From the NCBI RefSeq assembly GCF_018129005.1, contig NZ_JAAEDL010000008.1, positions 124,001 through 188,000 of the forward strand: a DNA stretch of 64,000 nt, read 5' to 3'. The translations under genes were made by a program, and so were the position numbers. This document shows positions 39,882-57,459 of the stretch, piece by piece (position 1 is the first letter of the stretch; each line of letters opens with the position of its first letter). The notes under the pieces were generated by a model. It made no database searches, had not been told where the DNA came from, and saw only the letters and a list, made by a program, of their open reading frames with translations. The DNA comes from Neoroseomonas eburnea. GTDB taxonomy: Bacteria > Pseudomonadota > Alphaproteobacteria > Acetobacterales > Acetobacteraceae.

Positions 39882-39895
39882 TTGTGCATTCTACC
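39882..39895. promoter_or_regulatory. GntR-type box, site A (TTGTGCATTCTACC)
   Basis: One of five related boxes in the catabolic island, 74 bases upstream of the Bug start at 39970. It matches TAATGCATTCTACC at 12 of 14 positions. A GACT sequence lies 16 bases before its CATTCT, the same spacing as at site B, consistent with the box overlapping a -10 region. Confidence 0.5.
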
Positions 39896-39969
39896 TTCTG
39901 TGCGCATGCTGAAGCGCGCGGTCCGCAGCGAGCGCTCGACGCGCGGCGGAGCAGCACAGGAGGAAATCG

Positions 39970-40971
39970 ATGTTTTCGAATCGGCGCGATCTTTGGGGCC
40001 TCGCGGCGGCTGCGGCCGCGTCTTTCGGAGCCGCGCGCGCCGCACCTGCTCAACCTCTGCGACCTTGGCAGCCGACAAAGCCGATCACACTGGTCGTACC
40101 TTTTGCCGCTGGCGGGACCACGGACCTGATGGCGCGGCTAATCGCCGGGCCGATGAGGCAGCGCTTCTCTCAGCCGGTGGTCGTCGAGAACGCGGCCGGC
40201 GCCAGCGGCAACATCGGCGCGGCCCGCGTCGCCCGCGCCGGCGCGGACGGCCACACTGCGCTATTGGCCCATGTCGGCGTACTAGCCATCAACCGGCACC
40301 TCTTCCGGAACATGCCGTTCGACGCCGAACGCGATTTCGTGCCGGTCGGTCTAGTCTGCACCAATCCGATGGCCCTGCTGGTCTCGACGCGCTCCGGGAT
40401 CCCGGATCTGGCGGCCCTGATCGCGCGGGCGCAGGAAGGTCGCCTCAAGGTCGCGACCTCGGGGAACGGCTCGACGCTCCATATCGGGGCGCTGCAGTTC
40501 CTCGCGGCCGTCGGTGGGCGGGCCGACCTAATCCCGTATCGGGGCGGGGCGCCGGCTGTGAACGACCTGCTGGCGGGCGTGGTGGACATGCTGGTCGAGC
40601 AGGCCGCGAGTGCCATCACGAACCAGCAGGGAGGCATGGCGCGCGCCTTCTTCGTCACGGGCAGCGCCAGGTTACCTGGCTTGCCAAACGTGCCGACGGC
40701 GGCTGAGGCCGGGCTGCCAGCCGTGAATTTCGAGGTCTGGAACGGCGTAGTGCTGCCGGCCGCGTCCTCACCGGCTGTGGCCGCGGCCTGGAACGCGGCG
40801 CTCACCGCCGCCCTGACCGACAGCGATGTGAGGTCGCGCCTCGTTCAGCTCAGCGCCCGCCTGCCGGAAGGCCAGGAAGGCAGCCCAGCGCATCTCGGCG
40901 ACCTCATTCGTCGCGACGGCGAGAAATGGGGCCGGCTGCTGCGGGAGACGGGCGTGCAGCCAGGGGATTGA
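39970..40971 (+). CDS. Bug/TctC-family substrate-binding protein
   Basis: A 333-residue Bug protein with signal MFSNRRDLWGLAAAAAASFG...ARAAPAQ. Motifs are KPITLVVPFAAGGTTDLMARLI, ENAAGASGNIGAARVARAGADG and LIPYRGGAPAVNDLLAGVVD. ATG 39970 is preceded by AGGAGG. It is the first gene of the catabolic island, with a GntR-type box upstream, and it precedes the CoA ligase genes by 55 bases that contain another box, so it is probably transcribed on its own. Confidence 0.92.
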   Translation: MFSNRRDLWGLAAAAAASFGAARAAPAQPLRPWQPTKPITLVVPFAAGGTTDLMARLIAGPMRQRFSQPVVVENAAGASGNIGAARVARAGADGHTALLAHVGVLAINRHLFRNMPFDAERDFVPVGLVCTNPMALLVSTRSGIPDLAALIARAQEGRLKVATSGNGSTLHIGALQFLAAVGGRADLIPYRGGAPAVNDLLAGVVDMLVEQAASAITNQQGGMARAFFVTGSARLPGLPNVPTAAEAGLPAVNFEVWNGVVLPAASSPAVAAAWNAALTAALTDSDVRSRLVQLSARLPEGQEGSPAHLGDLIRRDGEKWGRLLRETGVQPGD

Positions 40972-41009
40972 GGGTAGCGCTGGAGAGCGTTGTTGACTCA
41001 AAGAATGGA

Positions 41010-41023
41010 AAATGCATTCTACC
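41010..41023. promoter_or_regulatory. GntR-type box, site B (AAATGCATTCTACC), three bases before the CoA-ligase start codon
   Basis: It matches the consensus at 13 of 14 positions. TTGACT (40993-40998) lies 16 bases upstream of CATTCT (41015-41020), giving a plausible -35/-10 pair with the box over the -10 element. Transcription from it would begin at or near the start codon at 41027, which would make the mRNA almost leaderless. Confidence 0.55.
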
Positions 41024-41026
41024 TCG

Positions 41027-42166
41027 ATGTTGATGCTCGAAGCCGAAGGCAAGGCGTTGTTGGCCGGATCGGGTCTCCCGATCCCGGCCGGTGCGCACCT
41101 CGTCAGTGACGCCGCCGGCGTGGCTGGCCTGTCGCTCACCTTTCCCCTGGCTGCCAAGGCGCAGGTCCGCAGCGGCGGCCGCGGCAAGGCGGGCGGAGTC
41201 CGCCGCTGCGACGGACCCGCCGAGGCCGAGGCCGCCGTGGCCGCCATTCTCGGCACACGCTTCGGGGGCGAGCTCCCATCGGGCGTGCTGCTGGAGCCTT
41301 GGTTGCCCATCGCGCGGGAGATGTACCTCTCCGTGGTCGTGGATGGCCGCGCTGGCGGTTTTGTCGCTCTCTACGCGCCCGAGGGCGGCGTTGAGATCGA
41401 AGCCGGTCCGCCGCCGCTTCGCTACGAGTTCGGCTTGCCGCGTAACTTCCGCGCCCATGAGTTCCGCCGCCTGCTCGAAACGGTGGAAGCCGATCGCGCG
41501 GTGCGCGAGCGCGTCATCGCGCTGACGCGCAGGCTGCTGCAGGTCGCCGCGGCACAAGACTGCACAACCGTTGAGATCAATCCGCTGATCCGTCTCCAGG
41601 ACGGCAATCTGGTCCTCGGCGACGCGAAGGTGGTGCGCGACGACGCCGCGGCCTTCCGCCACCTGGAGCTCGAGGCCGCCCTGGTCTCCGAACGCATGCG
41701 CGAAGTCGAGGATGTCCGTCGCTGCCAGGACGCCAGCCTGATGCTGGTCTGGCTCGAAGGTGAGGTCGGGCTGATTTCCGGCGGCGCCGGCATGACCATG
41801 GCTGCCATGGATGCGATTGCGGCCGCCGGCGGCGCCCCGGCCTGCTTCCTCGACACCAGCGGCAACCCTACCCCCGCCGGCTTCGGCCTGGCCTTCGAAC
41901 TGCTCGATCGCAACCCCGGTGTCCGCGCCATCCTGGTCAGCATGTTCGGTGGTGGGCTGCACACCGACCGCGTCGCACGCACACTCGTCGGCATCCTTGA
42001 GGCCCGCGGGCCCGGGGCGAAGCCGGTGGTGCTCCGCCTGCAGGGCACCGGCAGCGAGGCGGCGACCGAGATCCTCGCCGCCGCCGGCCGTGTGAACCAC
42101 GCCTCGCTCGAAGAGGCCGTCGCCGAGGTCGTCGCCCGTACGCGGGCCCCGGAGGCCCGGGCATGA
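41027..42166 (+). CDS. Succinyl-CoA-synthetase-type acyl-CoA ligase, beta (ATP-grasp) subunit
   Basis: A 379-residue SucC-like protein (also resembles malate-CoA ligase beta). The ATP-grasp N-domain has PLAAKAQVRSGGRGKAGGVRR near residue 50 and TVEINPLIRL near 185. The C-terminal CoA-ligase domain includes GLISGGAGMTMAAMDAIAAAGG and FLDTSGNP. It forms the ligase with the alpha subunit encoded next (ATGA overlap), making a CoA thioester from a carboxylate and ATP. The substrate need not be succinate, since this copy sits in a catabolic island. ATG 41027 lies just after the box; ATG 41033 is an alternative. The ATG at 41012 lies inside the box. Confidence 0.9.
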   Translation: MLMLEAEGKALLAGSGLPIPAGAHLVSDAAGVAGLSLTFPLAAKAQVRSGGRGKAGGVRRCDGPAEAEAAVAAILGTRFGGELPSGVLLEPWLPIAREMYLSVVVDGRAGGFVALYAPEGGVEIEAGPPPLRYEFGLPRNFRAHEFRRLLETVEADRAVRERVIALTRRLLQVAAAQDCTTVEINPLIRLQDGNLVLGDAKVVRDDAAAFRHLELEAALVSERMREVEDVRRCQDASLMLVWLEGEVGLISGGAGMTMAAMDAIAAAGGAPACFLDTSGNPTPAGFGLAFELLDRNPGVRAILVSMFGGGLHTDRVARTLVGILEARGPGAKPVVLRLQGTGSEAATEILAAAGRVNHASLEEAVAEVVARTRAPEARA

Positions 42167-43056
42167 GCATCCTTCTTCGCGCTGGCGCGCGCGTCGTCAT
42201 CTTCGGCATCACCGGCCGCTTCGGCACGTTCTCCATCCGCGACCTTCGCGCCTCAGGCACCGAGGTAGTGGCCGGCGTGGTGCCCGGCCGCGGCGGCACC
42301 GAGGTCGAAGGCGTACCCATTTTCGGCTCGGCAGAGCAGGCGGTGTGCGACACCGGCGCCGACTGCGCCCTCATCTACGTGCCGGCGCCACTCGCCCTCG
42401 ATGCTGTGCTCGAGGCCATCGATGCCGACTGCCAGCTCGTCGCCTATCCTGGCGACGGCCTGCCGGTGGCCGACGCCATGGAGATGCGTGCCGCCGCTCG
42501 CGCGCGCGGCGCCTGGCTGGTCGGGCCGAACTCGCCCGGCTTGATATCCCCGGGCAAGGCGAAGCTGGGCTTCATGCCGAGCTTCTGCTTCCGCCCCGGC
42601 CCCGTCGGGCTGATCTCGCGTTCTGGCTCACTGTCCTACGAGGCGTCCTACCGTCTCTCCTGCGCCGGCGTTGGGCAATCCACTGTGATCGGCATCGGAG
42701 GCGACCCGGTGAAGGGCGTTACCGCTGCCGAGGCCGTGACCATGTTCCACGAGGACCCAGAGACGGCGGCCATTGTCTATCTCGGCGAGATCGGCGGCAC
42801 CGATGAATACGCCGTCGCTGACTACGCCCGGCGTCTGGATGCCAAGCCCGTCACCGCCTTGCTCGTCGGTCGCACGGCGCCACCCGGCAAGAAGATGGGC
42901 CACGCCGCCGCGCTGGTCGGCGGCTACGCCGACAGCTGGGCGGCGAAGGTTGAGGCGCTCGCCGCCGCCGGGGTCAACGTGGCCCGCAGCCTCGACCAGC
43001 TTCCTATCGCCGCCGCCGAATCCCTGGCCCGCGCGGGCCTCGCGCCCGCCGCCTGA
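42163..43056 (+). CDS. Succinyl-CoA-synthetase-type acyl-CoA ligase, alpha subunit
   Basis: A 297-residue SucD-like subunit. The CoA-binding Rossmann start is VVIFGITGRFGTFSIRDL (the family has QGITG). VGPNSPGLISPGKAKLGFMP and the phospho-His His247 in PPGKKMGHAAAL are intact. It binds CoA and carries the phosphohistidine intermediate. It is translationally coupled to the beta subunit. Succinate, malate, itaconate or a branched dicarboxylate are all conceivable substrates. Confidence 0.92.
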   Translation: MSILLRAGARVVIFGITGRFGTFSIRDLRASGTEVVAGVVPGRGGTEVEGVPIFGSAEQAVCDTGADCALIYVPAPLALDAVLEAIDADCQLVAYPGDGLPVADAMEMRAAARARGAWLVGPNSPGLISPGKAKLGFMPSFCFRPGPVGLISRSGSLSYEASYRLSCAGVGQSTVIGIGGDPVKGVTAAEAVTMFHEDPETAAIVYLGEIGGTDEYAVADYARRLDAKPVTALLVGRTAPPGKKMGHAAALVGGYADSWAAKVEALAAAGVNVARSLDQLPIAAAESLARAGLAPAA

Positions 43057-43101: not shown

Positions 43102-44304
43102 ATGACCACCGCCGAGATCACGATGCAGGATCGCCCCGCCGAGGGGCGCATCACCGACGACGCCGTCGCCGAGGCGCGCAAGATGATCGGCATGCAGCTG
43201 CGCCCCGAGGGGCCGTACCTGCAGGACGCGACGCCCGATACGCTGCGCAACTGGTGCAACGGCATCGGCGATCTGAACCCGCTCTACCGCGACCTTGAGC
43301 ACGGTCGCCTGTCGCGCCACGGTATGCAGCTCGCGCATCCGATGTTCCCCATGGCCTTCGGCTGGATCGGCCGCACCCGCTGGGGCCTGTCGGGCGTTCA
43401 CGGCTTCTACGCCGGTAATGACTGGGAACTGTTCCGCCACATCCGCCCCGGCGACCGGGTGAACGCGATCGAGCGCGTGGTGGGCGTCGAGGAGAAGGAG
43501 AGCAAATTCTCCGGCCGCCTGGTCATGCAGTATGTCGAGGCGAGCTACTTCAACCAGCGCGGCGAGCTGCTGGCCCGCGGCCTCGGCTGGTGCACGCGGC
43601 ATGAGCGCAAGGCAGCGCGCGACGCCGGCAAGTACAAGGACATCGTCCCCTACGAATACACGCCGGAGGAGTTCGAGCGCCTCGACGATGCCATCCTCAA
43701 TGAGGAGAAGAACATCCGCGGCAATCTGGTCCGCTATTTCGAGGACGTGCAGGTCGGCGAGGAGCTGCCGCCGATCGTCCGCGGCCCCCTGTCCCTGATG
43801 GATACGATGGGCTTCCTGGTCGGCTGCGGCCGCGGCCACACCCATGGCGTCGTGCTGAAGAACGCGGTCAAGCACCCCGGCCACTTCTTCCGCAACCCGG
43901 AGGCCGGTGGCGGCATCGAATACACCGGCATCGGCCACCATCGCGACTCCGTCGCGAAGGAGGTCGGCGTGCCCGGCACCTACGACTACGGTCCGCAGCG
44001 CTCGGCCTGGATGTGCAGCCTGGTCACCAACTGGATGGGCGATGCCGCCTTCCTCAAGCGCGTGCGCAGCGAGATGCGGCGCTTCAACACCATGGGCGAC
44101 AGCACCTGGTGTAAGGGCAAGGTGACGCGGAAATACGTCAAGGACGGGCATGCGCTGGTCGACATCGAGATCTGGGGCGAGAACCAGCGCGGCGAGCTGA
44201 CCACGCCGGGCATGGCGACGGTCGCGCTGCCCTCGCGCGACGTGAACAACAAGGTGTTCCTCGACGGCGCCGGTCTCGACCTGGACCTGCCGCTGGTGCG
44301 CTGA
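43102..44304 (+). CDS. MaoC-like double-hotdog acyl-CoA dehydratase/hydratase
   Basis: A 400-residue protein with two hotdog halves: an FAS1-like dehydratase N-half (ATPDTLRNWCNGIGDLNPLYRD, SRHGMQLAHPMFP) and a second half (YFEDVQVGEELPPIVRGPLS, GRGHTHGVVLKNAVKHPGHFF, WGENQRGELTTPGMATVALPS). Such enzymes hydrate enoyl-CoA or dehydrate hydroxyacyl-CoA, for example mesaconyl-CoA hydratases. GAGAGGA precedes ATG 43102. It sits between the CoA ligase and the CoA-transferase pair, so its substrate is probably the CoA ester they make. Confidence 0.85.
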   Translation: MTTAEITMQDRPAEGRITDDAVAEARKMIGMQLRPEGPYLQDATPDTLRNWCNGIGDLNPLYRDLEHGRLSRHGMQLAHPMFPMAFGWIGRTRWGLSGVHGFYAGNDWELFRHIRPGDRVNAIERVVGVEEKESKFSGRLVMQYVEASYFNQRGELLARGLGWCTRHERKAARDAGKYKDIVPYEYTPEEFERLDDAILNEEKNIRGNLVRYFEDVQVGEELPPIVRGPLSLMDTMGFLVGCGRGHTHGVVLKNAVKHPGHFFRNPEAGGGIEYTGIGHHRDSVAKEVGVPGTYDYGPQRSAWMCSLVTNWMGDAAFLKRVRSEMRRFNTMGDSTWCKGKVTRKYVKDGHALVDIEIWGENQRGELTTPGMATVALPSRDVNNKVFLDGAGLDLDLPLVR

Positions 44305-44332: not shown

Positions 44333-45475
44333 ATGAACCAGGCTGCAGCGGGGCCGCTCGAGGGGATCAGGGTGGTCGAGCGCAGCGCCGGCGTCGCCGC
44401 GGCGGCTGCCGGCCGGCTCCTCGCGGCGATGGGTGCCGAGGTCGTGCTGGCGGAGGACCCCGCCGGCACGCCCTTGCGGCGCGAGCCTCCTTTCATCGGG
44501 CCTGGCATCAGCGCGCTGTTTGCCTATCTCGCCGCCGGCAAGCGCAGCGTCGTGGTCGACGGCGCCACCGCGCTGCACCGCCTGGCCGATGGCGCGGACA
44601 TCCTGATCGACGACACGCCGGTCGAGGATCGTGTGGCGCTCGGCCTTGATCCCGCCGCGGTGCGGCGCCGGTATCCCCGCATCGTGCATGTCTCGGTCCT
44701 CCCCTTCGGCGCATCGGGCCCGAAGGCCGGATGGCGCGGCGAGGAGGTCAACCTCATCCACGCCTCGGGCGAGGGCTACCTGCTGCCCAACGGCCTGTCC
44801 GTGGAGCTCTTCCCCGATCGTCCGCCGCTGAAGATCCATGGGCACTTCGCCTGCTGGCAGGCGGGCGTGGCCGCGGTGCTCGGCGCGCTCTCCGCGCTGT
44901 GGAGCAGTACGGGGCAGTTCGTCGACATCTCCGTGCAGGACGCGGCGCTGGCAGTCGGTGCCTTCGCCATCCAACGCCTCGGCGACGGGGAGGTGGAGCA
45001 CCGCACGACGCGATCCTTCCGCTTCGGCGGCGTGATCGAATGCCGCGACGGTTATGTGGAACTCCTCACGCTCGAGGACCGGCAGTGGCAGGGCCTGGTG
45101 AAGCTGATGGGCGATCCGGACTGGGCGGCCGATCCGGCGCTCGCCGATCCGGTCTCACGCAGCGCCAAGGGCAAGGAGATCAATGCGCGGATCCGTGCCT
45201 GGGCCCTGCAGCATCCGGTCGCGGAACTGGTGGCGCGGGCGCAGGAGCTCGGCGTCCCGATGGGGCGCTACAACACGCCGGCGGAGATCCTGGCCGGTCC
45301 GCACGAGAATGCCCGGGGCATCTTCGCACCGGTCGCGATGCTCGGCCTGGGACCGGTCCCCGTGCTGAGCGCGCCGGTGCGCTTCGGGCCCGATGCGCTG
45401 CCGCTGCGCCGCGGTCCGCCCGATCTCGGCGCCGACCAGCGCCTGCTGGCGCAGCCCGCCGCGGAGGTCGCATGA
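44333..45475 (+). CDS. Class III CoA-transferase (CaiB/BaiF), Cys in place of catalytic Asp
   Basis: A 380-residue CaiB/BaiF protein, slightly short. The opening GPLEGIRVVERSAGVAAAAAG lacks the usual ADFT core. In the segment that normally carries the catalytic Asp (D-x3-G, five residues before an Ala-rich helix) it has HFACWQAGVAAVLGALSAL, i.e. Cys174 at the Asp position (codon TGC). It may be inactive alone and act as the partner of the next gene, whose Asp is intact. The two genes overlap by four bases (ATGA), favouring a heteromer. This alignment was done by eye. Confidence 0.85.
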   Translation: MNQAAAGPLEGIRVVERSAGVAAAAAGRLLAAMGAEVVLAEDPAGTPLRREPPFIGPGISALFAYLAAGKRSVVVDGATALHRLADGADILIDDTPVEDRVALGLDPAAVRRRYPRIVHVSVLPFGASGPKAGWRGEEVNLIHASGEGYLLPNGLSVELFPDRPPLKIHGHFACWQAGVAAVLGALSALWSSTGQFVDISVQDAALAVGAFAIQRLGDGEVEHRTTRSFRFGGVIECRDGYVELLTLEDRQWQGLVKLMGDPDWAADPALADPVSRSAKGKEINARIRAWALQHPVAELVARAQELGVPMGRYNTPAEILAGPHENARGIFAPVAMLGLGPVPVLSAPVRFGPDALPLRRGPPDLGADQRLLAQPAAEVA

Positions 45476-46674
45476 CCATGGCCGGACCCCTTGCTGGCGT
45501 GCGCATCGCGGACTTTACCGTCCACGCCGCGGGCCCCTTCTGCACGCACATGCTGGCCCAGCTTGGCGCCGAGGTGATCAAGGTCGAGAGCGCCCAGCGC
45601 CCCGACATCTTCCGCAAGCCGCATCCGGTCTATGGCCGGCTGGGTGCTGCGACCTTCGACCAGGTGGCCTCGGCGAAGCTCTCGGTGCGGCTGAACCTGA
45701 AGCATCCGAGGGGCATCGAGCTCGCGAAGCACCTGGTCGCGCAGAGCGACATCGCGGCGGAGAGCTTCCGCCCCGGGGTGATGACGCGCCTCGGCCTTGG
45801 CTACGACGCGCTGCGTGCGGTGAAGCAGGACATCGTCATGTTGTCGGTCTCGGCCTCGGGGCAGAGCGGCCCCGACTCGCATTTCGCGGGCTATGCGCCG
45901 CTCTTTGGCGCCTGGGGCGGGCTTGGCTGGCTGACCGGCTATCCGGACGGGCCGCCGGTCGAGATGCGCCATGCCATGGATCATTCCGTCGGCCTGCATG
46001 CGGCGATGGCCGCCGTGGCGGCGCTGCACCGCCGGCGCCGCACAGGGGACGGCTCGCATGTCGATGTCTGCGCGCGCGAAGTTGCCGCGGCCGCGGCCGG
46101 CGACGCGCTGATCGAAGCCGCCGCCGGCGGCACGCCGCGCCGATGGGGCAACGCGCATCCGCGCATGGCGCCGCATGGCGTCTATCCGGCGCGCGATCCG
46201 GATTCCTGGCTGACCATTGCTGTCGCCGATGAACGCGCCTGGCTCGGCCTGCTGTCCGTCATGGGGCGCCGTGACCTTGCCGGCGATCCGCGCTTTGCGA
46301 CGGAGGCGGCGCGCCACGCGGTGCGCATCGCCCTCGACGCCATCGTCGCCGACTGGACGCGGCTGCAGGATGCCGAGGAGGCGGCCGCGCTGCTGCAGCA
46401 GGCGGGCTGTGCCGCGCATCCGTCCTGGGACACGCCGCACATCGCGGCCGATCCGCACCTGCGCGCTCGCGCTGCCATCGTCGACACGACGGAGCCCGAT
46501 GGCACGATGCGCGCCGCGGTGGGCGTGCCGGTGCGCCTGTCGGCAACCCCGCCGCGCGGGATCTGGCGCGGCACGCCGCAGCTTGGCGAGGATGAGGACA
46601 GGATCTTCGGCGATCTGCTCGGCCTCGACGTCGGGGCGCGGCGCAGCCTGGAAGCCGAGGGCGCGATTCTCTGA
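45472..46674 (+). CDS. Class III CoA-transferase (CaiB/BaiF)
   Basis: A 400-residue CaiB/BaiF protein with canonical opening GPLAGVRIADFTVHAAGPFCTHMLAQLGAEVIKVE. SFRPGVMTRLGLGYDAL is in place, and the catalytic Asp is in MDHSVGLHAAMAAVAAL. It transfers CoA between carboxylates via an aspartyl-CoA mixed anhydride. It is coupled to the preceding Cys-variant paralogue and followed 25 bases later by an HTD2-like hydratase. Confidence 0.92.
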   Translation: MTMAGPLAGVRIADFTVHAAGPFCTHMLAQLGAEVIKVESAQRPDIFRKPHPVYGRLGAATFDQVASAKLSVRLNLKHPRGIELAKHLVAQSDIAAESFRPGVMTRLGLGYDALRAVKQDIVMLSVSASGQSGPDSHFAGYAPLFGAWGGLGWLTGYPDGPPVEMRHAMDHSVGLHAAMAAVAALHRRRRTGDGSHVDVCAREVAAAAAGDALIEAAAGGTPRRWGNAHPRMAPHGVYPARDPDSWLTIAVADERAWLGLLSVMGRRDLAGDPRFATEAARHAVRIALDAIVADWTRLQDAEEAAALLQQAGCAAHPSWDTPHIAADPHLRARAAIVDTTEPDGTMRAAVGVPVRLSATPPRGIWRGTPQLGEDEDRIFGDLLGLDVGARRSLEAEGAIL

Positions 46675-46699: not shown

Positions 46700-47542
46700 A
46701 TGAGCGAACACGAATGGGGAGCCTGGATCGGCCGGAGCGAAAGCCGCACTGAGGCGATCGCTCCTGACCGCGTGGCGGCGCTGGCCGCGACGCTGGACCT
46801 CGACCAGGCGCAGCAGCCCGGCGCGCCTTTGCCGCCGGGCTGGCACTGGCTTTTCTTCAACCCCTTCGTTCGTCGAAGCGAACTCGGCGAGGACGGGCAT
46901 CCGAAGCGCGGCGGCTTCCTGCCGCCGGTGCCGCTGCCGCGCCGGATGTGGGCCGGCGGGCGGGTCGAGTACCTCGCGGACCTGCCGGTCGGCGCGACGG
47001 TGGAGCGGCGCAGCGAGATCGTCTCGATCGATCGCAAGGTCGGCAAGCGCGGCGAGCTGGTCTTCGTCACGGTGCGCCATATCCTTGCGACCGGCGGCGC
47101 GGACTGCATCCGGGAGGAGCAGGACATCGTCTACCGTGCGCCCTCTGCGCCCGGCACGCCGGCGCCGCCGCCCGAGGCCGCCCCCGGCGGAGCCATCGCA
47201 TCGGAGGAGGTGCATCCCGACCCGGTGCTGCTGTTCCGGTATTCGGCGCTGACCTCCAACGGCCATCGCATTCACTACGATCTGCCCTATGCGCGCGAGG
47301 AGGAGGGCTATCCAGGCCTCGTCGTGCACGGGCCGCTGACGGCGACGCTGCTGCAAGGCTTCGCGCGGCGCTGCTGCGGCGATGCTCGGTTGGCACGCTT
47401 CGCCTTCCGCGGTGTCAGCCCGCTCTTCGCCGGCCATCCCTTCCGCCTGGAGGCAGCGGCCGAAGAGGAGGGGCTGCAGCTCTGGGCCCGCGGGCCCGAG
47501 GGTGAGCTGGCGATGGGCGCCGAGGCCACGTTCCGCACGTGA
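46700..47542 (+). CDS. HTD2 / mesaconyl-C4-CoA hydratase-like hotdog dehydratase
   Basis: A 280-residue FAS1-like dehydratase. PGWHWLFFNPFVRRSELGEDGHPKRGGFLPPVPLPRRMWAGG near residue 50 is the family hallmark. The second hotdog has NGHRIHYDLPYAREEEGYPGLVVHGPLTATLL, which holds the hydratase His/Asp region. Related proteins are mitochondrial HTD2 and the mesaconyl-C4-CoA hydratase of the 3-hydroxypropionate cycle. It ends the first rightward block of the island. ATG 46700 follows ACGGGAACACGG. Confidence 0.87.
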   Translation: MSEHEWGAWIGRSESRTEAIAPDRVAALAATLDLDQAQQPGAPLPPGWHWLFFNPFVRRSELGEDGHPKRGGFLPPVPLPRRMWAGGRVEYLADLPVGATVERRSEIVSIDRKVGKRGELVFVTVRHILATGGADCIREEQDIVYRAPSAPGTPAPPPEAAPGGAIASEEVHPDPVLLFRYSALTSNGHRIHYDLPYAREEEGYPGLVVHGPLTATLLQGFARRCCGDARLARFAFRGVSPLFAGHPFRLEAAAEEEGLQLWARGPEGELAMGAEATFRT

Positions 47543-48579: not shown

Positions 48580-48620
48580 GGCTCGTTCCTTCCCTTCGGG
48601 CCGCGAGTGGTGCCGCTAAA

Positions 48621-48634
48621 TAATGCATTCTACC
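48621..48634. promoter_or_regulatory. GntR-type box, site C (TAATGCATTCTACC)
   Basis: The best copy of the box and the one from which I took the consensus. The inner TAATGCATT is almost a perfect palindrome. It overlaps the promoter-like element of the leftward Bug gene. Confidence 0.55.
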
Positions 48635-48752
48635 CGCAATTCGACAAGGGCCTGCCTCTGGGCCTCCTGGGGTGGACGCGTTGCTCGGCCCAATTTCTGC
48701 GGGAGAAACGTCAGAATTCAAGGTTTCGAACGGGTCCTCAAAAAATTCTGGA

Positions 48753-48766
48753 TAATGCATAATGCT
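48753..48766. promoter_or_regulatory. GntR-type box, site D (TAATGCATAATGCT)
   Basis: The palindromic core TAATGCATAA is conserved but the right flank differs from the TACC of the other sites. It lies 133 bases upstream of the ABC binding-protein start, in an AT-rich patch that includes GATAAT (48751-48756). Confidence 0.45.
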
Positions 48767-48899
48767 TTTAGGTTGACGCTCTCGGGAGCCGGAGGAATGA
48801 TCCGCCACGTCCAACGAAGACCCGGCGCCCTCGTGGCTGCGCCGAGCCCCGCCCGACAAGAACCGAAGCCGCCCCGGCGGCCCGAGGAGGAAGCCGTCC

Positions 48900-50131: not shown

Positions 50132-50887
50132 ATGACGATGATACCGATCAGCGCGGGCCCGCGGCTCGACGGGCGCGTCGCCCTGGTCACCGGCGGGATG
50201 GGCGGCATCGGCCGCGCCGTCTGCGCCACCCTGGCCGAAGCCGGGGCGAAGGTGCTCGCGACCGACCTGCAGGAGGACCGGGCCTGGCTCGATGCCACGC
50301 CAGGCGTCGCCTTCCTGCGCCACGACGTCACGTCCAGCGCCGAGACGGATGCCGTTCTCGACCGCGTCGCGGCGGAGCATGGCCGGCTCGATATCCTGAT
50401 CCTCTGCGCCGGGAGCATCGCGCGGACGCCGCTGGCGGACAGCACGGATGAGGAGTGGCAGTCGATCCTCGACGTCAACCTGATGGGCGTCGTGAATCCG
50501 CTGCGCAAGGCCTATCCGATGATGGTGCAGCAGGGTGGCGGCAAGGTCGTCGCGCTGGGTTCCATCGCTGCGAAGATCGGCGGCGTCGCGGCCGGCCCGG
50601 CCTATGTCGCCGCGAAATCGGCCGTGCACGGGCTGATGAAGTGGGTGGCCAAGGCCGGCGCGCAGCACGGCGTCTACGCCAATACGGTCGCACCCGGCCC
50701 GGTGGAGACACCGATGTGGCAGACCGTGACGGGGCGCGCCCCGCCCTCGGCCAATGGCAGCGTGCCGCTCGGGCGTTTCGGCCAGCCCGAGGACATCGCC
50801 CAGGCCATCCTGTTTCTCTGTTCGCCCGCGTCGAACTGGATCACCGGAACGGTCCTCGACGTGAATGGCGGCATGTTGATGGACTGA
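50132..50887 (+). CDS. Short-chain dehydrogenase/reductase (SDR)
   Basis: A 251-residue classical SDR. The cofactor motif is TGGMGGIG (20-27) with an Asp at residue 45 (LATDLQ), favouring NAD. Catalytic Ser144, Tyr158 and Lys162 (YVAAK) are present, as is VNGGMLMD at the C-terminus. It oxidises or reduces a hydroxyl/keto group, probably of the imported compound or a CoA ester. It lies 20 bases after the binding-protein gene and four bases before the next dehydrogenase gene. Confidence 0.92.
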   Translation: MTMIPISAGPRLDGRVALVTGGMGGIGRAVCATLAEAGAKVLATDLQEDRAWLDATPGVAFLRHDVTSSAETDAVLDRVAAEHGRLDILILCAGSIARTPLADSTDEEWQSILDVNLMGVVNPLRKAYPMMVQQGGGKVVALGSIAAKIGGVAAGPAYVAAKSAVHGLMKWVAKAGAQHGVYANTVAPGPVETPMWQTVTGRAPPSANGSVPLGRFGQPEDIAQAILFLCSPASNWITGTVLDVNGGMLMD

Positions 50888-50891
50888 CGCC

Positions 50892-51779
50892 ATGGCAGTG
50901 GAACGGATTGCCTTCATCGGCCTTGGCGTCATGGGCGGGCCGATGTGCCGCAACCTGGCGGCCAAGCATGCGGGGGAGGTGCGCGCCTTCGACCTGAACG
51001 ACGCCGCGCGTGCGGCGCTGCAGGACAGCCGCGCGCGCGTGACGGCGGAGATCGCGGCCGTGCTGGATGGCGCCGACATCCTCCTCCTCTCCCTGCCCGG
51101 CGCGAAGCAGGTGGAGGCGGTCTGCGCGACCTTGCCGCAGACCGGCAAGCCGGGGCTGCTGGTGGTCGATCTCAGCACGACGACTGTCGCCTCGGCGCGC
51201 CGCACCGCGGCGATGCTGGACGCCGCCGGCATGGCCTTCGCGGATGCGCCCGTCGCCCGCACGCGGGAAGCCGCGGTCCGCGGCGAACTTAGTATCATGG
51301 TCGGCGCGAGCGATGAGGTATTCGCCCGAATCCGTCCGCTGCTCGGCCATATGGGCACCGACGTCACGCATTGCGGCGGCATCGGCACCGGCCAGGCCGT
51401 GAAGCTCATCAACAACGCCCTGGTCTTCGAACACGTCGCGGCACTTGCCGAGATGATGGCGATCGGGGATCGCGCCGGGGTCGATCCCGCCGTGCTGCTG
51501 GACGCCGTCTCGCGCGGATCGGGCGACAGCTTCGTGCTGCGCAACCACGGGCGGAAAGCGATGCTGCCGCGAGAATTCCCCGACCGCGCCTTCCCGTCGG
51601 ACTACGTGCTGAAGGACATCGCAGGCATGCTGGAGCTCGCCGGGGATGCCGGCGTCCCGGCACGCATCACCGAGACGGCGCGCGACTACTACGCCGAAGT
51701 CGTGCGCCGCGGCTGCGGCAGCCGCTACTTCCCGGTCGTGCTCGAGCTCATCGCGGGCCGCATGGACGACCCGACCTGA
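50892..51779 (+). CDS. 3-hydroxyisobutyrate dehydrogenase-family NAD(P)-dependent oxidoreductase
   Basis: A 295-residue beta-hydroxyacid dehydrogenase. The Rossmann motif is FIGLGVMGGPMCRNL at 8-22 and the catalytic lysine is Lys171 in GQAVKLINNAL. The substrate signature, usually DAPVSGG, reads DAPVARTRE, so specificity differs from 3-hydroxyisobutyrate or tartronate semialdehyde enzymes. The stop shares a base with the next ATG (TGATG). A branched hydroxyacid intermediate would suit the rest of the island. Confidence 0.9.
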   Translation: MAVERIAFIGLGVMGGPMCRNLAAKHAGEVRAFDLNDAARAALQDSRARVTAEIAAVLDGADILLLSLPGAKQVEAVCATLPQTGKPGLLVVDLSTTTVASARRTAAMLDAAGMAFADAPVARTREAAVRGELSIMVGASDEVFARIRPLLGHMGTDVTHCGGIGTGQAVKLINNALVFEHVAALAEMMAIGDRAGVDPAVLLDAVSRGSGDSFVLRNHGRKAMLPREFPDRAFPSDYVLKDIAGMLELAGDAGVPARITETARDYYAEVVRRGCGSRYFPVVLELIAGRMDDPT

Positions 51780-52669
51780 TGAGCGCGGCGCTGCAGGACC
51801 TGCTGCCCCTCATCTGGACAGGGGCCATCACGGGCTGCCTCTACGCGATCGGCGCGCTCGGCCTGGTCATGATCTTCAAGGCGACGCGCGTCGTGAACTT
51901 CGCCCATGGCAACATGGCAGGGCTCGCGGCCTTCGTGGTCTACGCCTTCACGGCGCATTCGGGCGGCATCGGCTGGCTCGCCGCGGTCGCTGTCGCGCTC
52001 GCGATCGTGGTCGCGCTTGCGCTGGTGACCTACGGCGTGCTCGCGCGCGTATCGGAGCGGTCCGACCTGCGCGGCACTATCGGCACGCTCGGCATCGGGC
52101 TGATCCTGCAGGGCGCGACTCAGGTCGTGTTCGGGGCGGATATCGTGAACCTCGACTTGCCGGTGCCGCGCTGGGGCACGTCTGTCGCCGGCCTGCGCAT
52201 CACCTCCTACGACGTGGCGGTGCTGGTGGTGACCGCGCTGGTCGTCGCGACACTGTTCCTCGTCATCGAGCGTACGCGGCTCGGCATCGCGTTCCGCGCC
52301 GTCTCGACCAATCCTTTCGCGAGCCGCGTCTGCGGGCTGAACCTGTTCGCCGTGCAGGGCGTCGCCTGGGGCACAGCGGCCGGGCTCGGCGTCATCGCCG
52401 CGCTGCTCATCGTGCCCACCACCTTCCTCAGCTCCACGACGGTCGCGACCTTCATGCTGCAATCCTTCGCCGCGGCGGTGCTGGGGGGCTTCTCGAGCCT
52501 GCCGGGCAGCATCCTCGGCGGGCTGGTCGTGGGAATCGCCATGAACCTGTTCAGCTACTTCGTGTCGCCCGAGCTCAACAGCACCTTCCTGCTGGTGTTG
52601 ATCCTCACAGCGCTCAATCTGTTCCCGGGCGGCATCCTGCCTCAGCGCGGCGGAGGGTCCCGTGCCTGA
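51779..52669 (+). CDS. livH: Branched-chain amino acid-type ABC permease LivH
   Basis: A 296-residue inner-membrane permease with about eight hydrophobic segments. LivH marks are GCLYAIGALGLVMIFKATRVVNFAHGNM near residue 15 and FAAAVLGGFSSLPGSILGGLVVG near 235. It pairs with LivM as the channel. It ends in an eight-base overlap with LivM (GTGCCTGA). The gene symbol denotes family; the substrate is probably not leucine here. Confidence 0.92.
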   Translation: MSAALQDLLPLIWTGAITGCLYAIGALGLVMIFKATRVVNFAHGNMAGLAAFVVYAFTAHSGGIGWLAAVAVALAIVVALALVTYGVLARVSERSDLRGTIGTLGIGLILQGATQVVFGADIVNLDLPVPRWGTSVAGLRITSYDVAVLVVTALVVATLFLVIERTRLGIAFRAVSTNPFASRVCGLNLFAVQGVAWGTAAGLGVIAALLIVPTTFLSSTTVATFMLQSFAAAVLGGFSSLPGSILGGLVVGIAMNLFSYFVSPELNSTFLLVLILTALNLFPGGILPQRGGGSRA

Positions 52670-53648
52670 CGGCATGAGCGTCGCCGAAGCCCGGCCCGGA
52701 GCCCGCGCGCGGTCGCTCGGTGCGTTGCCGCGCGACGGCCTGCTGCTTGTGCTGCTCGCAATTGTACCCAGTATGCTGGGCGGCTTCTGGATCTACGGCA
52801 TCGGCGTCTGCATGGCGAACGCCGTCGCGGTCCTCTCGGTCAGCTTCCTGCTGCGCTACGGCGGCGAGGTATCGATCGGGCAGAGCTTCTTCCTCGCGCT
52901 CGGTGCCTACTGCGTCGCGATGATGGAGCGCGAAGTCGGCGTTTCCGTCGTCGTTTCCCTGCCGGTGGCGGCAGTCGTGGGGGTGGTGCTCGGGCTCGCC
53001 TTCGCCTGGCCGTCGCGGGCACTCTCGGGCATCTATCTCGCGGTTGCGACCATGGCGTTGGCACTCGCTGTGCCGGAGCTGATCCTGCTGCTCGGTCCGG
53101 TCGCCGGTGGCTATGAAGGCCTCTACGTGTCGCGGGCCCCGCTCGTCGGCGTGTCTGTCGATCTGCAGCGCTACTACCTTCCGCTCGTCGCGCTGGCTGC
53201 GGTCGTGCTGCTGCTCGCCCATTTCCGCCGGTCGCGTCAGGGGCTGGCGTTGCTGACCGCTCGCGACCATCCCCGCGCCGCCGAGGCCTTCGGCTTCTCC
53301 CGCGGCTATGCGCGGCTTGCGGCCTTCGCCATCAGCGCGGGCATCGCGGCGATCGGCGGTGCGTTGCTCGCCTTCGCGGCCTCGACGGTCTCGCCGAACA
53401 GCTACACGCTATGGACGGCGATCTATCTGCTTGTCGGCTCGGTGGTCAGTCTCGGCTCCCTTGGCCTCTTCGGGGCGCTGGTTGGTGGCGCCTTCATCAC
53501 ACTGGTTCCGCAGGTGCTTGCGTCCTGGGGCGACTGGGTGCCGATCCTCTACGGCCTCGCGCTGCTGGTTGTGGTCGTTCTCGGCGACCGTCCGGCGGAA
53601 GCCCTGACGAAGCTGCGTAAGCGGCTGGCGGGAGGGCGCGGTGGCTGA
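52662..53648 (+). CDS. livM: Branched-chain amino acid-type ABC permease LivM
   Basis: A 328-residue permease with LivM landmarks: YGGEVSIGQSFFLALGAYCVAMM, RALSGIYLAVATMALALAVPELI, and VSLGSLGLFGALVGGAFITLVPQ. The GTG start at 52662 overlaps the LivH stop; ATG 52674 is an alternative start. The next gene starts in its last eight bases (GTGGCTGA). Confidence 0.9.
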   Translation: MPDGMSVAEARPGARARSLGALPRDGLLLVLLAIVPSMLGGFWIYGIGVCMANAVAVLSVSFLLRYGGEVSIGQSFFLALGAYCVAMMEREVGVSVVVSLPVAAVVGVVLGLAFAWPSRALSGIYLAVATMALALAVPELILLLGPVAGGYEGLYVSRAPLVGVSVDLQRYYLPLVALAAVVLLLAHFRRSRQGLALLTARDHPRAAEAFGFSRGYARLAAFAISAGIAAIGGALLAFAASTVSPNSYTLWTAIYLLVGSVVSLGSLGLFGALVGGAFITLVPQVLASWGDWVPILYGLALLVVVVLGDRPAEALTKLRKRLAGGRGG

Positions 53649-54414
53649 GGCAGCGACCCTTGCGGCCGAACGGATCTCGCTCGCCTTCGGCGGGCATCGC
53701 GTCCTCAGCGATGTCAGCCTCGACTTCCGTGCCGGCCAGGTTACCGGGCTGATCGGGCCCAACGGCGCGGGCAAGACCAGCCTGTTCAACTGCCTGACCG
53801 GCCTCTACCGGCCGCAGGAAGGGACGATCGCGCTGGGCGACATGCGGCTCGAGGGCCTCGCACCCGCGCGGCGGGCGCGAGAGGGCCTGGCGCGGAGCTT
53901 CCAGCATGTCGCGCTGTGCCCCGACCTCAGCGTGATCGAGAATGTGATGTTCGGCCGGGCGCGCCTCGGCCGTTCGGGCTGGGCCAGTGCTTTCCTGCCA
54001 CTGCCGCGCGGCCGGGCGGAGGCGGCAGACGCGCGCGCCACGGCCGAAAGGATCCTCGCCCGGCTGGGTCTCGCAGCCTTCGCCGACGACATGCCGGCCA
54101 GCCTACCACCGGGCACTCAGCGCATGGTCGAGATCGCGCGCGCCATCGTCGCGGACCCTCGCGTGCTGCTGCTCGATGAACCCGCCGCCGGCCTCAACGC
54201 GGCCGAGACGCGGCACCTGACCGAGGCCCTCCGCGCCCTCGCCGGCCCCGACCTCGTGATGGTGGTGGTGGAGCACGACATGGACCTCATCATGGAGGTC
54301 TGCGACCGCATTCACGTGCTGAACTTTGGCCGCCTGATCGCCTCCGGCACGCCGGCGGAAATCCGCGCGGACCCGGAAGTGGTACGCGTCTATCTCGGTG
54401 ATCCCGATGACTGA
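53641..54414 (+). CDS. livG: Branched-chain amino acid-type ABC ATPase LivG
   Basis: A 257-residue ATPase starting with GTG. Walker A is GPNGAGKTS, Walker B is VLLLDEPAAGLN and the switch His is in VVVEHDMDLIMEVCD. The usual LSGGQ-type signature reads LPPGTQRMVEIARA, as in other LivG proteins. LivG and LivF form the heterodimeric motor. Codons overlap with LivM before and LivF after. Confidence 0.93.
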   Translation: MAEAATLAAERISLAFGGHRVLSDVSLDFRAGQVTGLIGPNGAGKTSLFNCLTGLYRPQEGTIALGDMRLEGLAPARRAREGLARSFQHVALCPDLSVIENVMFGRARLGRSGWASAFLPLPRGRAEAADARATAERILARLGLAAFADDMPASLPPGTQRMVEIARAIVADPRVLLLDEPAAGLNAAETRHLTEALRALAGPDLVMVVVEHDMDLIMEVCDRIHVLNFGRLIASGTPAEIRADPEVVRVYLGDPDD

Positions 54415-55144
54415 GCTGCTGCGCATCGAGGACTTGGCCGTTAGCTACGGCCCGTCGCCGGCGGTGTCCGGCATCTCACTCTCCGTGCCCGATCGCGGGA
54501 CGGTGGCGTTGCTCGGGGCCAATGGCGCGGGCAAGTCGACCGTGCTGAAGGCGATCGCGGGCCTCGTGCCGAAGTCAGCGGGGCGCGTGCTGCTCGCCGG
54601 CGAGGATGTCACCGCGACGGACACGCGGCACCTGGTTCACGCCGGCGTCGTCTATGTGCCCGAGGGGCGGGAGATCGTGCCGAACCTCTCGGTCGACGAG
54701 AACCTCGTGCTCGGCGGTTTTCACCTGGATGGCGCGACGCGCCGGCAGCGGCGCGACATGGTGCTCGGCATCTTCACCGAGATCGCCAGCCGCGCCTTGA
54801 GCCCGGCTTGGCGGCTGAGCGGCGGCGAGCAGCAGATGCTCGCGATCGGCCGCGCGCTGATGGCCGGCCCGCGGCTGTTGCTGCTGGACGAGCCCTCGCT
54901 CGGCCTCGCGCCCCTGCTGGTGCGAAGGGTCTTCGACCGTCTCGCCGCGATCCGGGCCGAGACGGGTCTGGCCATCGTGTTGGTCGAACAGAACTTCCGC
55001 ATGACCGTGCGCGTCGCCGACACTGTCCACTTCCTGCGGGGCGGCCGGCTGCTGGGTAAGCGCGACGCCGTCGAGCTACGCAATCCCGCCGCGATGGATG
55101 AGGCGATCGCTGCCTATCTCGGCGCCGGCGCCTCGGCGGCCTGA
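54407..55144 (+). CDS. livF: Branched-chain amino acid-type ABC ATPase LivF
   Basis: A 245-residue ATPase. Walker A is GANGAGKST, the signature is LSGGEQQMLAIGRAL, Walker B is LLLLDEPSLGLAP, and EQNFRMTVRVAD follows. The ATG at 54407 begins within the LivG stop region (ATGACTGA). A GTG at 54398 is in frame but less likely. It completes the importer. Confidence 0.93.
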   Translation: MTELLRIEDLAVSYGPSPAVSGISLSVPDRGTVALLGANGAGKSTVLKAIAGLVPKSAGRVLLAGEDVTATDTRHLVHAGVVYVPEGREIVPNLSVDENLVLGGFHLDGATRRQRRDMVLGIFTEIASRALSPAWRLSGGEQQMLAIGRALMAGPRLLLLDEPSLGLAPLLVRRVFDRLAAIRAETGLAIVLVEQNFRMTVRVADTVHFLRGGRLLGKRDAVELRNPAAMDEAIAAYLGAGASAA

Positions 55145-55157: not shown

Positions 55158-56087
55158 ATGGAACTGAAGGGGCGGGAGATCGCGCGGGGACTGCGCTTCC
55201 CGGAAGGGCCAGTATGTCTGCCGGACGGCAGCGTGCTGGTCGTGGAGATCGAAGGCGGCACCCTCACGCGCATCTCGTCCAGCGGGGCGAAGGAGGTCGT
55301 CGCGCAGCTCGGCGGTGGGCCGAACGGCGCGGCACTTGGGCCCGATGGCAAGATCTATGTCTGCAACAACGGCGGCTTCCGCTGGCTCGAGCAGCAGGAC
55401 GGCTACCTCCGGCCGCTCGGCATCGCCGAGGACTACGACGGCGGCCGGATCGAGCGCGTGGACCTCGCCACCGGCAAGGTCGAGCTGCTCTACCGTGACT
55501 GCGACGGCCGTCCGCTTTGCGGCCCGAACGACCTGGTCTTCGATGGCCAGGTGGGCTTCTGGTTCAGCGACCTCGGCAAGGTGCGGGCGCGCAGCATGGA
55601 TCGCGGTGCGGTCTACTATGCGCGCATGGATGGCAGCGCCATCCGCGAGGCGATCTTCCCCGTGCTGACGCCGAACGGCGTGGGCCTGTCGCCCGACGGC
55701 CGCACGCTCTATGTCGCCGAAACCGAGACGAGCCGCCTCTGGGCCTATGAGGTGACGGCGCCGGGTGTGGTGAAATTGGAGCCCTGGCCAGCGCCGAATG
55801 GCGGGAGGCTTCTCTTCGGGGCGCCGGGGTACCAGCGCTACGACTCCCTTGCGGTCGAGGCGGGCGGCAACATCTGCGTGGCGACGTTGGTGCGCGGCGG
55901 CATCAGCGTCATTTCGCCGGATGGCGCGCTGCTCGAATTCCACGAGGCGCCGGAGGCCTACTGCACCAACATCTGCTTCGGCGGGCAGGACCGGCGGACC
56001 GCCTTCATCACTCTCTCGGGCACGGGGCGGCTGATCGCGGTGGAGTGGCCTCGCGCCGGCCTCCGGCTGCATGACGGGCCGGGCTGA
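55158..56087 (+). CDS. SMP-30/gluconolactonase-like beta-propeller hydrolase
   Basis: A 309-residue SMP-30/gluconolactonase/LRE-like protein. Metal-ligand motifs are GLRFPEGPVCLPDG (Glu near 16), CGPNDLVFD and LTPNGVGLSPDGRTLYVAET. No signal peptide is seen. The family hydrolyses lactones; the substrate is probably a lactone formed from the island's hydroxyacid intermediate. GAGGGGAG precedes ATG 55158. It is the last rightward gene, 15 bases before a convergent stop, with no terminator hairpin visible. Confidence 0.88.
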   Translation: MELKGREIARGLRFPEGPVCLPDGSVLVVEIEGGTLTRISSSGAKEVVAQLGGGPNGAALGPDGKIYVCNNGGFRWLEQQDGYLRPLGIAEDYDGGRIERVDLATGKVELLYRDCDGRPLCGPNDLVFDGQVGFWFSDLGKVRARSMDRGAVYYARMDGSAIREAIFPVLTPNGVGLSPDGRTLYVAETETSRLWAYEVTAPGVVKLEPWPAPNGGRLLFGAPGYQRYDSLAVEAGGNICVATLVRGGISVISPDGALLEFHEAPEAYCTNICFGGQDRRTAFITLSGTGRLIAVEWPRAGLRLHDGPG

Positions 56088-56102
56088 TCCTGGCGCCCAT
56101 CG

Positions 56103-56684
56103 TCACGCTGCGAAGTCGACCTCCGCGGCGGGCTGGACCTTCGCGAAGCGCTTGACGCAGAAGAGCGCGCTGCGGTGTTCCTCGTCCGTCGCACCCGCGC
56201 AGCAGTCTTCCACAACCACTGCCTCGTAATCCCGATCATGCGCCTCCCGCGCGCCGGTGTGGACTACGCCGTTGGTTGAAACGCCGGTGAGGTAGAGCCG
56301 CTGCGCCCCGAGGGCACGCAGCGTCGGTTCGAGGGAGGTGCCGTAGAAGGGGCTGACGCGGTGCTTGACGATGTCGAGGTCGCCCTCCAGTGGGGCGATC
56401 GCCGCATGCACCTCAGTTCCCCAGGTGCCGAGCTTGAAGATCCCGCGGCTGCGCGCCCCTGAGAAGACCGGGGAGTTCGGCGGGCATTGCACGTAGTCGG
56501 GCGAGAAGCCCACGCGTACATAGCCGACGCGGACCTCAGCCGCGCGCGCCCTGGCGATCAGCTCCGCCGTTCGCTCGAGGATCTTCTCCCGCGCGATGGT
56601 CGGCGCATAGGTCGCGCCATTGGGACCGTCCGGATGGATCAGGTCGTTCATCATGTCCATGACGAGCAGGACGGATCGGCTCAC
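56103..56684 (-). CDS. Isochorismatase-fold hydrolase without the catalytic Cys
   Basis: A 193-residue isochorismatase/cysteine-hydrolase-fold protein. Asp10 (LLVMDMMND) and Lys107 (IVKHRVSPFYGT) of the triad are present, but the nucleophile position in LTGVSTNGVVHTGAREA is Val140 (codon GTA), not Cys. True isochorismatases also lack the Cys and hydrolyse a vinyl ether with Asp and Lys, so hydrolysis is not ruled out. A nicotinamidase or N-carbamoyl-type activity is unlikely. It lies 21 bases after the GntR gene and is probably co-transcribed with it. Confidence 0.83.
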   Translation of the reverse strand: MSRSVLLVMDMMNDLIHPDGPNGATYAPTIAREKILERTAELIARARAAEVRVGYVRVGFSPDYVQCPPNSPVFSGARSRGIFKLGTWGTEVHAAIAPLEGDLDIVKHRVSPFYGTSLEPTLRALGAQRLYLTGVSTNGVVHTGAREAHDRDYEAVVVEDCCAGATDEEHRSALFCVKRFAKVQPAAEVDFAA

Positions 56685-56705
56685 GGTCGGTCTCCTTGAC
56701 GGTAG

Positions 56706-57380
56706 TCAGTCGCTCGGTGCGGTGCCCGGGGCGTTATCGTCCTGCCGGGCCTTGAGCATGTCATTGAGTTCGCTCCAGCCGGCCTCGATGTGGCGGCGGA
56801 GGCAGAGCATCGCCCCGGCGACATCGCCCTCGATCATGCAGCGGAGGAGTTCGGCGTGTTCCTCCGCCGCGCGTTCCGCGCGGCCGCCGATGCGGTTGAT
56901 GATGTCGAAGGGGTAGCGGGCCCAGAGAATCTGTACGAAGTGCAGCGTCTGCGGCGCCTTGGCCGCGTCGTACATGCGGCGATGGAAGCGGTAGTTCGCC
57001 CCACGGGCGGCGGCGCTGTCCTTCTGCGCGGCGGCCATGGCGAATTCGTCGGCGAGCTTACGGATCTCCTGCAGGTCGTGCGTCGTCGCACGCTCGACCG
57101 CATAGCGGACGAGCTGGCCCTCTAGCAGGATGCGCAGGTTGAGGATCTCGTTCGAGGCGCCGATGTCGAAGGGGACGACCGTCGCGCCCTTGTAGGAGCG
57201 GCTGTCAATGTAGCCCTCGGCCTCGAGCAGGCGCAGCGCCTCACGGACCGGAGTGATGCTGATCTGAAGCTGCTCCGCGATCTCGGCCTGCTTGAGCCTT
57301 GCGCCGCGCGCGAGCCGGCCTGAGAGGATGGCTTCGCGCAGGTGGTCGGCGACCTGTTCCTCTTTCGTGCGATACTCCAT
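56706..57380 (-). CDS. GntR family regulator, FCD subfamily
   Basis: A 224-residue GntR/FadR-type (FCD) regulator. The winged HTH is at 8-70 (VADHLREAILSGRLARGARLKQAEIAEQLQISITPVREALRLLEAEGYI). A helical FCD effector domain follows, with possible metal-binding His residues (FHRRMYDAAK, EHAELLRCM, LRRHIEAGW). ATG 57380 is the family start. The related box at 57446-57459, 65 bases upstream, implies autoregulation; four further copies of the box in the island are its likely targets. The effector is unknown but probably the imported acid or its CoA ester. Confidence 0.92.
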   Translation of the reverse strand: MEYRTKEEQVADHLREAILSGRLARGARLKQAEIAEQLQISITPVREALRLLEAEGYIDSRSYKGATVVPFDIGASNEILNLRILLEGQLVRYAVERATTHDLQEIRKLADEFAMAAAQKDSAAARGANYRFHRRMYDAAKAPQTLHFVQILWARYPFDIINRIGGRAERAAEEHAELLRCMIEGDVAGAMLCLRRHIEAGWSELNDMLKARQDDNAPGTAPSD

Positions 57381-57445
57381 CGAGCCTTGTCCCTTCTGGC
57401 CTCCCACTGGCCGAGGCTGAACCGGCTCGGTGATCCGATGCAGAT

Positions 57446-57459
57446 AATGCATCATACCT
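57446..57459. promoter_or_regulatory. GntR-type box, site E (TAATGCATCATACC)
   Basis: It matches the consensus at 12 of 14 positions, in the region upstream of the GntR gene. It lies in an AT-rich patch (57440-57475) including TATGAT and CATTAT on the minus strand, so it probably overlaps the regulator's own promoter. Confidence 0.55.

Follow-up and report, generated by a model that had tools for sequence, protein, structure and literature searches.

The 64,000-nucleotide stretch of the Neoroseomonas eburnea genome analysed here (the window) carries a catabolic gene cluster, a gntR gene coding for a GntR-family regulator of the FCD subfamily, and five short boxes upstream of cluster genes. 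A first-pass annotation had placed these boxes at 39882 (TTGTGCATTCTACC), 41010 (AAATGCATTCTACC), 48621 (TAATGCATTCTACC), 48753 (TAATGCATAATGCT) and 57446 and had proposed that they define a GntR/FCD regulon. All five exist, the last of them (TAATGCATCATACC) beginning at 57445. Our analysis suggests that the boxes are very probably operators of the neighbouring VanR-group FCD GntR protein, which would act as an autoregulated repressor for this pathway only, and that the operator itself is best read as an array of ATGCAT units.

The boxes stand about 75 nt before the start of BugA, 3 nt before that of the succinate-CoA-ligase beta-like (SucC-like) gene, about 42 nt before BugB, about 134 nt before the substrate-binding protein (SBP) of the importer and about 65 nt before gntR. 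They are intergenic, as had been claimed, with the qualification that those at 41010 and 57445 overlap in-frame ATGs (41012 and 57455, respectively) of longer open reading frames (ORFs). The start of the ligase gene is most likely 41027 or 41033, and that of gntR was placed at 57380 by an N-terminus, MEYRTKE, that is invariant in 23 aligned proteins. The five boxes are located in promoter regions and are far from chance.

Conservation of both gntR and the catabolic cluster extends across Alpha- and Betaproteobacteria, with carriers that include a Roseomonas metagenome-assembled genome, Bradyrhizobium, Azorhizobium, Agrobacterium, Paraburkholderia, Variovorax, Cupriavidus and Rhodobacterales. 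The conserved blocks are gntR-isochorismatase, SBP-SDR-HIBDH (3-hydroxyisobutyrate-dehydrogenase-like)-LivHMGF-SMP30 and (SucCD-like)-MaoC1-CaiB1-CaiB2-MaoC2, with Bug genes in several.

Table 1. Putative operators and cluster genes in the window.
Feature	Position	Strand	Remarks
Operator box 1, upstream of BugA	39874..39895	+	25.0 bits in the palindrome register (39874-39892); TACC half-site in addition
Operator box 2, upstream of SucCD-like/enzyme operon	41002..41023	+	27.2 bits
Operator box 3, upstream of BugB	48613..48638	-	12.2 and 10.4 bits; single strong ATGCAT unit whose partners are weak
Operator box 4, upstream of ABC-importer operon	48745..48770	+	top palindrome of the window, 28.7 bits
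Operator box 5, upstream of gntR	57444..57462	-	24.8 bits
GntR regulator, FCD subfamily, VanR-like six-helix effector domain (predicted), 224 aa	56706..57380	-	
Isochorismatase-family cysteine hydrolase, downstream of gntR	56103..56684	-	
BugA, TctC-family periplasmic binding protein	39970..40971	+	
Succinate--CoA-ligase beta-like subunit	41027..42166	+	below NCBIfam cut-offs
Succinate--CoA-ligase alpha-like subunit	42163..43056	+	below NCBIfam cut-offs
MaoC-like dehydratase/hydratase 1	43102..44304	+	
CaiB-type CoA-transferase 1	44333..45475	+	
CaiB-type CoA-transferase 2	45472..46674	+	
MaoC-like hydratase 2	46700..47542	+	FAS1_DH match just under Pfam cut-off; conserved in cluster
BugB, TctC-family periplasmic binding protein	47581..48579	-	
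SBP of Liv-type ABC importer, first gene of operon	48900..50111	+	
SDR oxidoreductase and 3-hydroxyisobutyrate-dehydrogenase-like protein	50132..51779	+	
LivH, LivM, LivG, LivF importer genes	51779..55144	+	LivH placed by conservation and neighbours, own frame not scanned
SMP-30/gluconolactonase-like protein	55158..56087	+	

The operator motif

To avoid circularity, we fetched 27 loci carrying GntR relatives, 25 of which hold close orthologs (64-85% identity); L030, which matches over 87 residues only, and L031, which is 27% identical, were set aside. Within 33 upstream regions chosen by hand (orthologous gntR, importer and enzyme operons, with Bradyrhizobium thinned to three strains), AATGCAT emerged with no prior as the top enriched 7-mer, present in 22 regions against 1.3 expected, and a near-perfect 19-bp palindrome, ATAATGCATNATGCATTAT, was found upstream of gntR in Bradyrhizobium and Azorhizobium. 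At up to four mismatches this foreign palindrome matches the window at 39874, 41002, 48745/48752 and 57444 only, with 0.025 matches expected per 64 kb; at up to three mismatches it matches the whole 5.86-Mb genome at two places, 48752 and 57444. A scoring matrix derived from 34 sites of other genomes gave four of the boxes between 24.8 and 28.7 bits and the remaining one (48620) 12.2 bits, where scores of at least 14 bits are expected by chance 0.15 times and those of at least 12 bits 0.33 times per 64 kb. The nine highest positions of the window all fall at the five boxes; the tenth, at 59574, reaches 8.8 bits, in keeping with the earlier observation that the window holds no further box.

The first-pass annotation had also called for a genome-wide scan, and had held that many copies at random positions would speak against a regulon. 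At up to two mismatches its 14-mer occurs at five places in 5.86 Mb, four of them in the window, with none for a reversed-pattern control, and equally strong sites at random positions were not found. A looser pattern matched six places in the whole genome (reversed control, one), of which two are outside the cluster, both in long ORFs. The fifth match to the 14-mer, C37:19776, and a near-match, C8:48951, were rejected as extra regulon members: both lie within long ORFs, the former scores 1.5 bits on the ortholog matrix and nothing around the latter exceeds 8 bits. Across the whole genome, no strong operator copy was found outside the cluster. In the window taken alone, the excess of the annotated motif is modest, with four matches at up to three mismatches against 0.75 expected, a count reached in one of 100 shuffles.

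When the window boxes were aligned on ATGCAT, a second, weaker ATGCAT appeared at -7 and at +7, with a mean of 3.4 of 6 matches at each, compared with 2.6 at the next best offset and a background of 1.3. An equal 7-bp pattern is seen in 42 ortholog cores (3.9 at each side), which were themselves selected via the palindrome, so that the period is an independent figure in the window only. We therefore read the operator as an array of ATGCAT units recurring at 7-bp intervals; in their best form, two such units make up the 19-bp palindrome. Because ATGCAT is its own complement, such an array is at once a direct and an inverted repeat, and the bound dimer may be centred on a spacer base or on an ATGCAT, both of which fit the array data. 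The TACC that had been noted on the right of four of the five boxes is indeed there; because a weaker ATGCAT stands 7 bp to either side, it is probably a decayed TGCA, that is, a degenerate second half-site. TAATGCATTCTACC was accordingly given up as the operator, its TACC end being degenerate and its place being taken by TGCAT in other species, and the 48753 box appears as the strongest of the set rather than as an outlier. The core had been called self-complementary; the exact form TAATGCATTA occurs in none of the five boxes, and three sites come, at best, within one mismatch of it. On two Agrobacterium plasmids, sites before MaoC1 and before a separate CaiB gene (L083, 4959 and 13876; L087, 4976 and 13876) carry a common variant half, ATAATATAAAATGCATTAT or near it.

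Occurrence across genomes

The site is present at up to four mismatches in 20 of the 25 close-ortholog loci; these 20 all score at least 20 bits, most of them having contributed to the matrix. We searched 26 ortholog genomes at up to three mismatches and obtained 49 matches in 16 of them (strands counted once, overlapping registers separately), against three for the reversed control. All but one of these matches (G171:C252) lie in or within 2 kb of the fetched locus or beside cluster genes; two in G152 are on a separate contig, which carries its SucC and SucD homologs. Every one of the eight Bradyrhizobium genomes has exactly three sites: one precedes gntR, one precedes the importer SBP and one stands at the SucC-like end of the cluster. 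This last site falls within the fetched locus for L010 and L012 and, for the remaining six, at the end of the locus or just past it. At least one site at up to three mismatches is present in each of five plasmid clusters (Agrobacterium twice, Cupriavidus, Qingshengfaniella and Salipiger) that were fetched through MaoC1 after the consensus was fixed. In L036, from another genome of the family to which the window belongs, sites of 25.0 and 16.5 bits precede a BugB homolog that itself precedes gntR. By tblastn alignment, one strong site (L007 20537, 31.6 bits) lies inside the 5' part of a SucC homolog.

Promoters, regulator and mode of action

Promoters were identified as sequence matches, not as mapped starts, and their geometry differs between the operons. 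In 16 of 18 importer sites, the exceptions being L085 and L086, TTGAC begins 12-14 bp downstream of the operator centre and so 2-4 bp beyond the 19-mer; box 4 stands two bases before TTGACG, the matched -35. At the enzyme operon, TTGAC lies 17-18 or 25-26 bp before the operator centre in seven of 14 sites, two registers that differ by about one 7-bp unit, and the other seven have no such TTGAC; the -10 is likely to be a CATTAT, CATTCT or CATCAT inside the operator. These counts omit L006 18737 and L028 11351 as importer sites, L012 20636, L006 9922 and several Bug and other rows. In the window, the SucC-like gene has the match TTGACT-16-CATTCT, with TTGACT at -18 and CATTCT at +4 from the centre of box 2, box 3 overlaps a BugB match, TTGTCG-16-CATTAT, and box 5 overlaps a gntR match, TCGACA-17-CATTAT; exact TTGAC occurs in none of the 16 gntR sites. 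Only a few bases separate the operator and inferred -10 from the SucC-like start (window 41002-41033), and in L010 and L012, both from Bradyrhizobium, the operator abuts the ATG. Because they so nearly reach the start codon, the transcript of the SucC-like operon may be leaderless.

The regulator has a GntR winged helix-turn-helix domain (wHTH; PF00392, residues 7-68, E 2.8e-16) and an FCD domain (PF07729, residues 78-199, E 9.1e-22), both above cut-off. Its AlphaFold model (mean pLDDT 90) has six long effector-domain helices, from H73-97 to H187-215, together with a five-residue helix, H158-162, and would fit the VanR group of FCD proteins, which have six helices rather than seven. Among the nearest folds to this predicted model are the solved structures of McbR/YncC, PmiR, DhdR and AlkR, together with Atu1419, and McbR comes first (27% identity; TM 0.80 by query length). 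All 23 aligned proteins share the recognition-helix stretch SITPVREAL without a change, and R46 is invariant. The usual FCD metal ligands are Asp-x3-His ... His ... His; H133, H175 and H197 are invariant in the same 23 proteins, and Asn129 occupies the first presumed ligand position.

Word enrichment, the co-occurrence of site and cluster, and the wHTH and FCD domains of the regulator support the local GntR/FCD regulon that had been proposed, and the layout is that of an autoregulated one, with a site before the regulator's own gene and before adjacent structural operons. In such a scheme, GntR dimers would bind adjacent ATGCAT units, and the ligand-free protein would cover the -10 of the enzyme, BugB and gntR promoters, excluding RNA polymerase, until a pathway acid or its CoA ester entered the FCD pocket and GntR was released. 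At the importer, GntR would sit just upstream of the -35 at nearly fixed spacing and would repress by hindering polymerase or, less likely, activate. The outcome would be an autoregulated switch for one catabolic island that covers uptake, CoA activation and hydration.

Several results weigh against this reading. Box 3 is a single strong unit, and 0.33 scores of its height are expected in 64 kb. The search for promoter matches found none at BugA, and the importer operator's position before the -35 would also suit an activator. In five of the 25 close-ortholog loci (L018, L019, L020, L022 and L029), whose recognition helix is identical, the stretch that was read has no score above 11.0 bits. 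More distant GntR homologs (41-54% identity; L037-L039, L099 and L100) show no strong site over the stretch of about 3.6 kb that was read, where the best score is 14.1 bits, and the distant-homolog genomes G004, G005 and G141 hold no palindrome at up to three mismatches; because these homologs have no strong site, operator specificity would seem to hold only within the close ortholog group. At up to three mismatches the palindrome occurs in 26 of 150 family genomes and its reversed control in 15, and at up to two mismatches it occurs in 14 of 385 class genomes. A close homolog is present in three class genomes, of which G261, the genome of L027 again, is the sole one among the 14. As a stand-alone marker the palindrome was therefore judged of little use.

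An alternative that we regard as unlikely, while giving it real weight, is a dual mode, in which the protein represses at the enzyme, Bug and gntR promoters and activates at the importer, where the -35 follows the operator centre by 12-14 bp. The contrast between the importer and enzyme-operon geometries described above favours it, as does the FCD protein CitO, which is described (PMC4746285) as inducing the cit promoters by binding upstream of them. However, eight of the 16 importer sites with TTGAC are from Bradyrhizobium and so are not independent, L085 and L086 have no TTGAC, and an operator touching the -35 could also repress.

It is improbable that the boxes belong to a different regulator, for example the product of a LysR gene (35955-36860) or a distant one, with gntR as bystander or target. 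Attribution to GntR rests on co-occurrence; a distance of 3 kb separates box 1 from the LysR gene upstream of it, a MarR gene is found near the cluster on two Agrobacterium plasmids, and the five ortholog loci named above retain gntR without a strong site. Against this, at E 1e-15 the 27 ortholog loci showed no LysR hit, gntR is in all 27 (though they were fetched through GntR), all five plasmid stretches, fetched by way of MaoC1, carry an annotated GntR gene, and gntR itself has the site in front of it, in the window and also in Bradyrhizobium, Azorhizobium and others. The idea that the boxes are merely AT-rich -10 regions, alike by chance or through shared promoter elements, can be given very little credence: some boxes do overlap -10-like CATTAT/CATTCT hexamers and the annotated motif alone has only its modest excess in the window, but genome-wide occurrence is restricted to the cluster here and in other genomes, the ATGCAT pair is conserved in clusters of distant taxa and recurs with a 7-bp period in the window, and the importer box lies outside the core promoter.

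Known systems and the catabolic island

An autoregulated repressor of this kind has close parallels. As described in PMC7797058, Atu1419 of Agrobacterium fabrum is a VanR-group FCD regulator, with a wHTH and a six-helix effector domain, that represses its own and catabolic genes and has N5,N10-methylenetetrahydrofolate as ligand. Its short dyads overlap the -10 or sit between -10 and -35, two of its sites lie 190 bp apart in one divergent region (here boxes 3 and 4, 132 bp), and a recognition-helix Arg contacts DNA (here R46 is invariant). It differs in its operator, ATGTATACAT as opposed to ATGCATNATGCAT here, and the proteins share 26-27% identity. FadR-subfamily operators, as described in PMC4494728, are likewise AT-rich dyads with weaker extra half-sites 7-12 nt from the centre, comparable to the 7-bp arrays here, but have TKGT/ACMA boxes with GT and AC 2-3 nt apart, whereas the ortholog matrix centres on TGCAT-N-ATGCA (C at -3, A at -2), giving TGCA/TGCA and no GT/AC. 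NanR and BioR are named there as exceptions to the consensus. Escherichia coli NanR (PMC8012715), also a GntR-type repressor, controls a catabolic system through a short tandem-repeat operator; its (GGTATA)3 units are direct repeats, unlike the ATGCAT units here, which at 7-bp steps are both direct and inverted. The solved fold neighbours McbR/YncC, PmiR, DhdR and AlkR have other regulons, and the operator of AlkR is given as ATTGTCAGACAAT in PMC12042122. Full-text literature searches, one of which returned a paper on a mycobacterial GntR protein (PMC4609117), did not show the AATGCATT operator among the papers listed, a weak absence, with most subscription journals outside their scope. The type of system is well known, then, and the operator variant is possibly new. 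A bolder proposal, which we hold to be more doubtful than the dual mode by itself, is that of a separate FCD operator class, defined by a 7-bp ATGCAT array, the lack of a GT/AC core and an invariant recognition helix, and combined with opposite modes: -10 repression at the enzyme and regulator promoters and activation from before the -35 at the importer.

From its gene content, the cluster looks like a system for the uptake and CoA-dependent breakdown of an organic acid; comparisons of its proteins with Pfam, NCBIfam and the PDB give enzyme classes only, no substrate. Since the SucCD-like proteins fall below curated cut-offs, the name "succinate--CoA ligase" is only approximate. On the Agrobacterium and Rhodobacterales plasmids an N-acyl-homoserine-lactonase-family protein stands in place of the SMP30 found in the window, Bradyrhizobium and betaproteobacteria, and this exchange hints that a lactone is opened at some step. 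A CoA ester lyase is present on each of the five plasmids, and this genome has six HpcH/HpaI-type matches, all on other contigs. Because a lactonase of either unrelated kind, CoA activation, MaoC hydratases and the plasmid CoA ester lyase are co-located, a route from a lactone to a C5-dicarboxylate (itaconate-like) can be considered, as speculation. Upstream of gntR, biotin-carboxylase, gamma-carboxygeranoyl-CoA-hydratase-like, carboxyltransferase and CaiB genes (57602-63288, minus strand) have no box, and an ORF at 63298-63954 shows some similarity to a Bug-gene region.

The putative operator provides a regulon that can be tested for a CoA-dependent catabolic island which is widespread in Alpha- and Betaproteobacteria and apparently uncharacterised. 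It would mark the genes of the pathway and could offer a biosensor-like route to its substrate, and it would be a further exception, among FCD operators, to the GT/AC rule.

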